Shown: positions 5,139 through 9,356 of the stretch, piece after piece | How the letters are laid out: each line of letters opens with the position of its first letter | Position numbering within the stretch: the stretch's first letter is position 1 | NCBI GenBank assembly: GCA_004322535.1 | Contig: SCUZ01000083.1 | Span: 58,074-122,073 of the forward strand | Length of the DNA: 64,000 bases | From: Rugosibacter sp. | Lineage (GTDB): Bacteria; Pseudomonadota; Gammaproteobacteria; Burkholderiales; Rhodocyclaceae | Direction: 5' to 3' | Notes under the pieces: generated by a model | What the model was told of the DNA's origin: nothing | The model's database searches: none | The model's input: the letters and a program-made list of their open reading frames with translations, nothing else | Program-made: the position numbers and the translations under genes

Positions 5139-5729
5139 TTATGCTCGTGCCGCAATTGCCACTGTTCGAGACTCTGTCTTGACTGCCGAGGAACTTATGT
5201 CAGCGGCAGTTGACTGAATGTCGCCACCTATCTGCCCGCCTTCTTCAATCAGAATTTTTCCATAACGGATCTTGCCGGTAACGCGACCAGTCGCATGAAT
5301 GATCAACTGGCTTCGGGCAGTGAGTTCACCCTCAAAGATGCCGTATATTTCTGCAGTATCGATACTCACGGTGCCACAGAATATGCCCTGTTCGGCAATG
5401 CGGATGATATGGCTATCCATGGTCGCTTCGACCCTGCCCTCCACAACCAGCGTATCGCAATCAAGAATTTCTGCGCCCTTGAGCTTGACATCGGGACCTA
5501 CGAGCAGACGGTTGCCAACACTTTTCTCGGCTTTCAACAATTGTGTGGCGGAGACAGATGAAGTATCAGAAGGGACCGAGTTCGCAGTGTCTGCTATGGG
5601 TATGGGTAGCGATTGAGCTGCAGCGGGTTTGGGTACCGGTGCAGGCATGGGAATCGATGGCCGGCCAAACAGACCACGCGCACTATTCGATCCATCGGAC
5701 TTGCCGGTGAAATCTGGAGTTTTAAGCAT
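5139..5729 (-). CDS. Bactofilin
   Basis: Polar-uncharged repeats GAEILDCDTLVVEGRVEATMDSHIIRIAEQGIFCGTVSIDTAEIYGIFEGELTARSQLII. Confidence 0.88.
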   Translation of the reverse strand: MLKTPDFTGKSDGSNSARGLFGRPSIPMPAPVPKPAAAQSLPIPIADTANSVPSDTSSVSATQLLKAEKSVGNRLLVGPDVKLKGAEILDCDTLVVEGRVEATMDSHIIRIAEQGIFCGTVSIDTAEIYGIFEGELTARSQLIIHATGRVTGKIRYGKILIEEGGQIGGDIQSTAADISSSAVKTESRTVAIAARA

Positions 5730-5995: not shown

Positions 5996-6817
5996 TTAGC
6001 GGCCAAGCCCCAGGCCGTGCCCAACACTGGCAGCGCCACCGATACCAAGACCCATGCCACCACCTACGCTACCGCCTTGCAGCTGTTTAGTCCGGACACC
6101 AGTATCAATTTGAGCCCGGCCGCTGATGCCGGCACTCTCGCCATTGGTGTTGGCATTCCCCTGTCCTGTCATGGCCGAGCCCCGAGTAGACACATGCGCA
6201 TCCGTTGCGACATGAGCGCTGGGGCTAACGTTCAAGGTCTGGGCGATCTGGCCCCAACCCATGCCTTGACTACGAAGTTGCAGGACTCCGGCTGTGCCTG
6301 CTGTGCCAGCGACTTGTGTGCTTTTTTCTGTGCCGAACGCAGTAGATTCACCCAGCAACACCATTTGCAATTGCTTTGGCGTTGGATTGGCAATACCTTG
6401 CGCCGCTAATTTGGCTCGGGTTAAAGATAGCGCACGACTAACCTCGCCGTATTCCATCGGTGGGGTCGGCGGCGAGAAAACCAGCTGGCCGGATGTACCC
6501 GATTTTCCACTCGCTGTCAGCGATACAGGCGTGCTACTGCGTAACCCATTGATCAGGTTCAATGCATTCTCATGGGAGCCGGCAAGCGTCTCAAACTCAC
6601 TGGCCAGGTGGTTGGCGGCAACCAGTTCGGCAGCACTCTCATGCCCGGAAACAGCTCCAGCGGCTGCAGTTTTCGAGCTTGCGGCCATTTCGCCGGACTT
6701 GGCGGAAATTGCTCCAGATGCTGCTCCAGAAGCCGTTGCGCCCGCTGCCATTGCTACGGACGTGACAAAGTAAATAGTACTCAGGGCTAACAGTTGTTTT
6801 ATGCATCGCTTCTTCAT
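5996..6817 (-). CDS. Exported Ala/Gly-rich protein of unknown function
   Basis: Signal peptide, LRSQGMGWGQIAQTLNV motif, Gly-rich tail; aaggag seven bases upstream of ATG. Confidence 0.7.
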   Translation of the reverse strand: MKKRCIKQLLALSTIYFVTSVAMAAGATASGAASGAISAKSGEMAASSKTAAAGAVSGHESAAELVAANHLASEFETLAGSHENALNLINGLRSSTPVSLTASGKSGTSGQLVFSPPTPPMEYGEVSRALSLTRAKLAAQGIANPTPKQLQMVLLGESTAFGTEKSTQVAGTAGTAGVLQLRSQGMGWGQIAQTLNVSPSAHVATDAHVSTRGSAMTGQGNANTNGESAGISGRAQIDTGVRTKQLQGGSVGGGMGLGIGGAASVGHGLGLGR

Positions 6818-6886: not shown

Positions 6887-7456
6887 TTAACTACTCAATG
6901 ATTGCTGTGCAACCACACCATCAACAATTTTCACGTGATCGCCAGCTGCCACCGCCGGCGGATTGCGCTGATAGAGCGTACGCAGCACGCCATTCTCCAT
7001 ACGCACTCGGATGCGATACGACGAAGTTTTGTGCGTATTTTTTTCGATCTCATTGCCAGCGTAGGCACCACCAGCGCCACCTAAAAGGGTCATCGCAGTG
7101 CGGCCATTACCTTGACCGATGCTATTGCCTACCAGGGCGCCGGCAACTCCTCCGGCAATTGCCCCCACGCCACTGCCCTGACCTTTCATTTCGACCAGGT
7201 TCACCGATTCCACGACGCCGCAGTAACGGCAGGCAGAAGCCACTGTGCGGTCGTGCCCGGCGGAACCGGTACCAGACTCCGGCAGTGCTTTCTGTGTGGC
7301 TTCCGCAATAGATGATGCCGTAGATGCCGTACCCGCTTCGGAATGGGCCAGCGGTAGGGCTCCGGTTAAAGTCGCGATGCCTAGCAAACTAAACACGGTA
7401 ACGGCAATCGCTGCAATCACCATTAATGGATAGAGTAGTTTGGGACGAGTTTGCAT
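6887..7456 (-). CDS. Glycine-zipper (2TM) envelope protein
   Basis: Start at MQTRPKLLYPLMVIAAIAV; GVGAIAGGVAGALVGNSIGQGNGRTAMTLLGGAGGAYAGNEIEKN glycine zipper. Confidence 0.8.
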   Translation of the reverse strand: MQTRPKLLYPLMVIAAIAVTVFSLLGIATLTGALPLAHSEAGTASTASSIAEATQKALPESGTGSAGHDRTVASACRYCGVVESVNLVEMKGQGSGVGAIAGGVAGALVGNSIGQGNGRTAMTLLGGAGGAYAGNEIEKNTHKTSSYRIRVRMENGVLRTLYQRNPPAVAAGDHVKIVDGVVAQQSLSS

Positions 7457-7586: not shown

Positions 7587-7754
7587 TCAGGAAATTCCGG
7601 CAAAACGCTTACTCGTCAGCGAAGTGCCAACGATATCGCCCACCAGGCAGGAAACAGTGCCTGTTTCCTGCCTGGTAGGATTCGAGGTACAAGCTGCGAC
7701 AGGTGGAAGCGCTGCGAGCAAGAAAATTCTTTTTTTAATTCGCTGTCTGTTCAT
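7587..7754 (-). CDS. Small (55 aa) predicted lipoprotein
   Basis: MNRQRIKKRIFLLAALPPVAACTSNPTRQETGTVSCLVGDIVGTSLTSKRFAGIS; lipobox VAAC; aaggag SD seven bases before ATG; downstream of a sigma54-type promoter. Confidence 0.6.
   Translation of the reverse strand: MNRQRIKKRIFLLAALPPVAACTSNPTRQETGTVSCLVGDIVGTSLTSKRFAGIS
7642..7676. repeat. 16-bp perfect inverted repeat, 3-nt loop
   Basis: accaggcaggaaacag-tgc-ctgtttcctgcctggt read directly. Confidence 0.95.
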
Positions 7755-7812
7755 GGCATTGCTCCTTAAGTCAATTGGGCATTTTGATGCAATGCTCAAC
7801 CACCTGTGTATA

Positions 7813-7828
7813 AGCAACCACTATGCCA
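7813..7828 (-). promoter_or_regulatory. sigma54 (-24/-12) promoter
   Basis: Minus strand TGGCATAGTGGTTGCT vs consensus TGGCAC-N5-TTGCW; GG and GC separated by exactly 10 nt. Confidence 0.75.
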
Positions 7829-7892: not shown

Positions 7893-7910
7893 TGTCGCCA
7901 TCAAGCGACA
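7893..7910. promoter_or_regulatory. QseF/GlrR-type enhancer site 1 (TGTC-N10-GACA)
   Basis: TGTCgccatcaagcGACA inside an 11-bp-arm inverted repeat (7888-7915). Confidence 0.7.
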
Positions 7911-7957: not shown

Positions 7958-7975
7958 TGTCGCGCTGTGGCGACA
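7958..7975. promoter_or_regulatory. QseF/GlrR-type enhancer site 2 (TGTC-N10-GACA)
   Basis: TGTCgcgctgtggcGACA, centred 65 bp from site 1, abutting the qseF stop codon. Confidence 0.7.
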
Positions 7976-7976
7976 G

Positions 7977-9356
7977 TTACTTGAACAACGAAGGATCCAT
8001 GGAATGGCGCTGCAGGAGCTTGTAAAAATCCGTACGGTTTCGCTGCGCCAAAGTGGCAGCACTCGCAACGCTACCCCCCGTCATTTTGAGCAGCCGCGCC
8101 AGGTAATCGGCTTCAAAGCGACGCCGTGCTTCATCGAAGGGGATAATATCTTCCAGTTCCCGGATGGCATTTTGCACCAGTGCAAGTGGTACGATGGATC
8201 CGGTAGACAAGGCAACTGCCTGCTCTACTACATTGAGCAGTTGACGCACGTTACCGGGCCAGCTGGCGCGTACTAGAATCTCCATCGCCTCCGGCGCAAA
8301 TCCATTAACTTCCTTTCGGTAGTTTTCCGAGATCTTGTGTAGAAAATACCTGGCCAGCAGAGGAATATCGTCACGCCGTTCAGCCAATGATGGAATCGCC
8401 AGCGCCACCACCTTGAGGCGATAAAACAAATCACTACGAAACCGTCCTTCGGCCATTTCCACGTCCAGATCGCGGTGCGTAGCACTAATGACACGAATAT
8501 CCACACGCTGCGATTTAGCCTCACCTAATGGCCTCACCTCGCGCTGCTCCAGCATGCGCAGCAATTTTACTTGCAATGGCAAAGGCATATCGCCAATCTC
8601 ATCCAGGAAAAGCGTGCCACCATCGGCCTCCCTGACTAACCCTGCATAGTCTTTATTCGCCCCGGTAAATGCCCCGCGCACATAGCCAAAAAGCTCGGAT
8701 TCCAGAAGGTTTTCAGGGATTGCCCCACAATTCACAGCGACAAAACTCGCCTGAGACCGTGCGCTGGCAAAATGAATTGCCTGGGCCAACAGCTCTTTCC
8801 CGGTGCCTGATTCTCCATACAACATGACACTGGCGTCGCTAGCAGCAACCAATCGGGCTTGCGCCAAAAGACCTTCCATGACGGGACTTTGGGTAACAAT
8901 ACCCGCTCGCCATGTTTGCTCGCCCATAGCCTCAGTGGTGTCACTGACAGAAAAGCGCAGTGCCTGCTCCACTTGGGCAATCAGCGCTTTGGCATCATAA
9001 GGCTTGGTCAGATAGCCAAACACGCCACGATTTGTCGCTGCAATCGCATCCGGAATGGTGCCATGCGCCGTGAGTATGATCACCGGTAGCGCCGGATGCG
9101 TCGCGTTGATCGCCTCAAACAATGCCGAACCATCCATACCCGGCATACGCAGATCGGTAATCACCAGATGCGGCCGTTCAACCGCAATCATGGCCAGTGC
9201 GTGTTCTGCCTTGTCTGTCGTCATGACTCCATATCCTGCTGCCTCGAGCCGAATGGTCAACAGGCGAAGCAAATCCGGGTCATCATCAACCAATAAAATC
9301 TGTGATCGCGTTTGTAGCCGAGTTTGTGAGCTATTTTTTGCATTCGGCGAGCTCAT
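7977..9356 (-). CDS. qseF: Sigma54-dependent response regulator QseF/GlrR
   Basis: REC domain, AAA+ GESGTGKELLAQAIH, GAFTGA, C-terminal HTH; next to QseG and histidine kinase. Confidence 0.92.
   Translation of the reverse strand: MSSPNAKNSSQTRLQTRSQILLVDDDPDLLRLLTIRLEAAGYGVMTTDKAEHALAMIAVERPHLVITDLRMPGMDGSALFEAINATHPALPVIILTAHGTIPDAIAATNRGVFGYLTKPYDAKALIAQVEQALRFSVSDTTEAMGEQTWRAGIVTQSPVMEGLLAQARLVAASDASVMLYGESGTGKELLAQAIHFASARSQASFVAVNCGAIPENLLESELFGYVRGAFTGANKDYAGLVREADGGTLFLDEIGDMPLPLQVKLLRMLEQREVRPLGEAKSQRVDIRVISATHRDLDVEMAEGRFRSDLFYRLKVVALAIPSLAERRDDIPLLARYFLHKISENYRKEVNGFAPEAMEILVRASWPGNVRQLLNVVEQAVALSTGSIVPLALVQNAIRELEDIIPFDEARRRFEADYLARLLKMTGGSVASAATLAQRNRTDFYKLLQRHSMDPSLFK

Follow-up and report, generated by a model that had tools for sequence, protein, structure and literature searches.

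The open reading frame (ORF) considered here follows qseF (glrR) in the 64-kb stretch of DNA that was analysed (the window), and it is the first ORF downstream of a predicted sigma54 promoter. Its translation, up to the stop codon, reads MNRQRIKKRIFLLAALPPVAACTSNPTRQETGTVSCLVGDIVGTSLTSKRFAGIS. The protein possesses a VAAC lipobox with Cys22, a mature part of 34 residues, and a second cysteine at position 36. The N-terminal region, MNRQRIKKRIFLLAALPPVAAC by translation, combines a basic n-region, a hydrophobic h-region, and a lipobox ending in Cys, which would make it a substrate of Lgt and LspA. A threonine occupies the +2 position and, by the +2 rule, predicts sorting to the outer membrane. 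No Pfam or NCBIfam family is matched by the window protein. In a preliminary description the ORF was presented as a native 55-aa micro-lipoprotein, and the particulars listed there, namely the ORF itself, its lipobox, Shine-Dalgarno sequence, 34-aa mature part, second cysteine, and place behind the sigma54 promoter, all match the sequence.

The ORF lies behind a textbook sigma54 promoter. The product of qseF has NCBIfam GlrR as its best match, at 585.9 bits, which is under the cut-off of 763. The consensus for QseF/GlrR sites is TGTCN10GACA (PMC8745638), also given as TGTN12ACA (PMC6075780). Two sites of the form TGTC-N10-GACA precede the ORF and occur nowhere else in the 64 kb, and TGGCATAGTGGTTGC is likewise the sole strict sigma54 match in the window. 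Equivalents of the sigma54 site, with the expected spacing, lie upstream of most qseF-linked homologues, the copies directly after qseF. The combination of sites and promoter is that of the QseF/GlrR regulon, and it suggests that the lipoprotein gene is the first cistron of a QseF/sigma54 operon. The glycine-zipper 2TM, 273-aa, and bactofilin genes lie on the same strand and possibly form one QseF-driven envelope operon. Coordinates of all features are collected in Table 1.

Table 1. Features of the qseF-proximal locus, in window coordinates.
Feature	Position	Strand	Basis or remark
Bactofilin	5139-5729	-	Downstream gene
273-aa protein	5996-6817	-	Downstream gene; no family match
Glycine zipper 2TM protein (PF05433), intact	6887-7456	-	Next gene; its place beside the lipoprotein gene is conserved among relatives
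Window ORF	7587-7754	-	Probable truncated OsmB-like glycine-zipper lipoprotein gene; 55-aa remnant of a ~75-aa protein
Codons from former 3' UTR	7587-7609	-	Junction near 7609/7610; homology to G007 post-stop sequence
19-bp inverted repeat, 95%, inner 16 bp perfect	7639-7679	-	Within the ORF, codons 26-39; lineage-specific
Signal peptide and lipobox Cys22	7689-7754	-	Translation; conservation persists, dN/dS about 0.1 over codons 1-35
Shine-Dalgarno AAGGAG	7762-7767	-	Sequence; 7 nt ahead of the ATG
Sigma54 -24/-12 promoter TGGCATAGTGGTTGC	7814-7828	-	Predicted start near 7802
QseF/GlrR upstream activating site 2, TGTCGCTTGATGGCGACA	7893-7910	-	Same motif as site 1, 65 nt from it; conserved
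QseF/GlrR upstream activating site 1, TGTCGCCACAGCGCGACA	7958-7975	-	Fits TGTC-N10-GACA; same place in congeners
qseF/glrR, sigma54-dependent response regulator	7977-9356	-	NCBIfam GlrR best match and Pfam domains

The corresponding position in two congeners, G007 and G002, is occupied by a longer gene encoding a 75-aa protein (e.g., MNRQRIKKRIFLLAALPLIAACTSNPTKQEIGTVSGAVVGGIVGTSLTGSSAGTIGGAAAGAYIGNRIGKEMQRK). These intact orthologues match PF13488 (Gly-zipper_Omp) at 42.4 and 31.0 bits, relative to a gathering score of 25 bits. They also match OsmB (NF007830) as best or second NCBIfam family, at 32 and 39 bits; since the equivalog cut-off is 98 bits, they are not OsmB proper. They resemble OsmB in their length of ~75 aa, lipobox, and glycine-zipper hairpin, and the OsmB profile is covered over most of its length; they differ in standing under a predicted QseF/sigma54 promoter. 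A search of PDB with a profile of the intact family returned a single chain, a phage tape measure protein (E 0.008), and was uninformative. A second, intact OsmB-like paralogue is present elsewhere in the window genome. Inspection of 200 nt upstream of that paralogue (L048, contig C95) revealed no obvious promoter of the QseF type.

Homologues at E <= 1e-8, only in part orthologues, were found in 46 of the 299 genomes of the family. They adjoin qseF in about ten genera, in most cases with the glycine-zipper 2TM gene next in line, and the conservation downstream of qseF that the preliminary description had proposed as a check is thereby borne out. Among the loci examined, the order qseF, lipoprotein gene, glycine-zipper gene was seen in 14 genomes of 7 genera. 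One genome (G130) has qseF and the lipoprotein gene with no glycine-zipper gene in the 1.5 kb covered, while in five genomes of three further genera the glycine-zipper gene comes before the lipoprotein gene (in one of these, qseF lies beyond the covered stretch). The aligned intact proteins share a C-x-x-N-P motif and the glycine zipper, and eleven alignment columns do not vary. In two species of one genus (L147 and L149) the lipobox cysteine has been lost (LAAV, LAAP) but the zipper is kept, so that conservation is stronger in the zipper half.

The window protein shares the position of this family, as it occupies the orthologous slot after qseF, behind the upstream activating sites and the sigma54 site. 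In contrast to the intact relatives, it has no zipper and no family match. Alignments show the loss of nearly all the invariant zipper residues (G36, A37, G53, G57, A58, G61, and G65 in G007 numbering), and most of the eleven family-invariant residues are gone.

Two lesions account for this difference. The first is a deletion: relative to G007, ~75 nt are absent from about codon 47 to the old stop. The tail of the window ORF aligns to the post-stop region of G007, and none of 1000 shuffled sequences aligned as well. Since the deletion took the second half of the gene together with its stop, the last residues of the window protein are read from the former 3' UTR. A nonsense mutation, with in-frame relics of the zipper past the new stop, was also considered. 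The alignment between the tail and the zipper barely beats shuffled sequences (36 of 1000 reached its score), and this reading was supplanted by the deletion because the post-stop alignment to G007 is strong and the zipper alignment weak.

The second lesion concerns the inverted repeat inside the ORF, in which 16 of 16 inner positions pair in the window as opposed to 10 of 16 in G007. Among 400,000 simulated mutants carrying the observed number of changes at random places, none exceeded 14 pairs. The change rewrites SGAVVGG to SCLVGD, and it is the reason why Cys36 exists. A functional role for that cysteine, which the preliminary description had noted, is not supported: it is found in the window copy alone and is the product of a lineage-specific lesion. 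Conversion of an imperfect into a perfect inverted repeat is a signature of quasipalindrome template-switch mutation (PMC7202029), and clustered amino-acid changes arise by the template-switch route in yeast (PMC8604942). The comparison with G007 points to homogenization of the arms through replication template switching as the most likely origin of the repeat; selection for the hairpin is a formal alternative. The case resembles those reported (PMC7202029, PMC8604942) in that an imperfect repeat was made perfect by a clustered, multi-nucleotide change within a coding gene. It differs in being deduced between species rather than observed as a single event, and in that both arms have changed, so that the conversion may have taken two or more steps.

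The gene has met with several fates in the genus. In the tree, the window, G004, and G005 form one cluster to the exclusion of G007 (outgroup node support, 1.000). The two sister species share a single, common deletion of the whole gene, and the promoter and leader that were kept now precede the glycine-zipper gene. In G003, a frameshift interrupts the lipoprotein gene near codon 27, and with the glycine-zipper gene absent the 273-aa gene comes straight after it (L025/L150). Because several relatives are draft assemblies, an isolated lesion of this kind could reflect a sequencing error. In G006 and G008, another short signal-peptide ORF (L026, L027) is the first after the sigma54 site, and the only match shared by these ORFs is weak and confined to their first 28 residues. 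The ORF in G008 keeps a lipobox cysteine; that in G006 has a tryptophan there. Because the gene has been deleted, frameshifted, or replaced in congeners, and because the window genome holds an intact paralogue, the gene is dispensable in the genus.

Judged by these sequence comparisons, the window ORF is very probably a conserved OsmB-like lipoprotein gene in decay, now truncated, which forms the first cistron of a QseF/sigma54-activated operon. It would not be a native micro-lipoprotein, given that relatives encode a ~75-aa glycine-zipper lipoprotein and that its tail was once 3' UTR. The reading frame is kept in the congeners (E 5e-20, 3e-11, and 1e-8), and codons 1-35 compared with G007 gave a dN of 0.052 and a dS of 0.468, similar to the values of 0.042 and 0.483 for qseF. 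This agrees with the earlier assertion that the ORF is a coding sequence of lipoprotein type. In codons 36-47, dN rises to 0.18. When changes were polarized by hand with G003 and G002, the window lineage received ~6 synonymous and ~4 nonsynonymous changes (Fisher p about 0.01, with approximate site counts). Since codons 1-35 are under purifying selection, either the gene was truncated only recently or its lipid-anchored N-terminal part is still of some use, and a long-dead gene is disfavoured by the intact frame, Shine-Dalgarno sequence, signal peptide, and lipobox. As the species is represented by one genome, the lesions could also be confined to this strain or, with lower probability, stem from misassembly.

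A retained use would mean that the shortened protein serves as a 34-residue, lipid-anchored peptide under QseF control, its role residing in the conserved CxSNPxxQxxGTVS segment. This is the less probable outcome. The constraint on codons 1-35 and the intact expression and export signals would fit it, and so would the different short ORFs, with a signal peptide or lipoprotein-like, that occupy the slot in G006 and G008. However, the zipper is gone from the window copy although it is what the family conserves best, dN/dS climbs past codon 35, and sister species have deleted the gene outright. A stronger version, in which template switch and deletion together produced a new, functional short peptide with a novel cysteine under QseF control, i.e., remodelling and not decay, is rather unlikely.

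There is little to recommend the hairpin as a selected regulatory RNA (an attenuator, processing site, or small RNA) to which the ORF would be incidental. The fold predicted for the window RNA is very stable (-37.4 kcal/mol, z -6.8), but the congeners lack it, with z near 0 (for G007, -17.7 kcal/mol and 0.1), and the frame is conserved as protein. The hairpin exists as a single copy in the window genome and so is not a dispersed repeat there, it has no T-run and no terminator was found, and a comparison of the locus with Rfam gave no small-RNA match.

Least probable of all, and not supported, is the role suggested in the preliminary description, in which the protein would act in envelope stress as an effector or serve QseE/QseG as a feedback ligand. 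The gene does sit among the predicted targets of the very two-component system that it would act on, and a lipoprotein ligand is conceivable because QseG of E. coli is itself an outer-membrane lipoprotein that binds QseE (PMC6075780). However, the sequence showed no link to QseG, and the five congeners in which the gene is deleted, frameshifted, or replaced (G003, G004, G005, G006, and G008) have kept qseF and sites of the QseF type. An indispensable ligand is unlikely when the closest sister species have deleted its gene and another congener has a frameshift in it.

For the decaying allele, the following course of events is proposed. In relatives, QseF together with sigma54 RNA polymerase would activate the operon. 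The intact product, as family and motifs suggest, would be exported, lipidated at Cys22, and sorted to the outer membrane, where it may insert or oligomerize through a GxxxG-type helical hairpin alongside the glycine-zipper 2TM protein encoded by the next gene. In the window lineage, a ~75-nt deletion would have fused codon ~47 to the former 3' UTR, and homogenization of the repeat arms would have rewritten the first zipper repeat and created Cys36. Both lesions would destroy the hairpin of the protein, presumably with loss of its membrane insertion activity. Expression of the glycine-zipper protein encoded downstream is now most likely the main task of the promoter, as it is in both sister species that have deleted the gene.

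The finding on the window ORF itself is modest. As an example, the window copy offers a clean natural case of probable inverted-repeat arm homogenization in a bacterial coding gene, and a truncated relic whose first description suggested a new micro-lipoprotein ligand is a caution for small-ORF calls made from one genome. The broader value lies in the conserved set of envelope genes behind a QseF/sigma54 promoter, an arrangement for which no description was found in the open-access literature searched. The regulator is of the same kind as in the QseE/QseG/QseF (GlrK/GlrR) system of Enterobacteriaceae, and it shares with that system the consensus of its activating sites and a sigma54 promoter beside the qse locus (PMC6075780, PMC8745638). 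In E. coli, however, QseF targets rpoE and also glmY, which lies upstream of qseEGF, whereas here the site follows qseF and precedes envelope genes. From the predicted sites, QseF and sigma54 appear to drive envelope genes directly in these betaproteobacteria, a family that is probably Rhodocyclaceae sensu lato, and not a small RNA as in E. coli. Behind the site lie the genes of the OsmB-like lipoprotein and the glycine-zipper 2TM protein; BON-like proteins or bactofilin take that place in individual other genomes. In these distant relatives, a sigma54-type site after qseF precedes bactofilin (L037) or, as assigned by eye, BON-domain-like small proteins (L040 and L044), which may point to a broader set of envelope genes under QseF.
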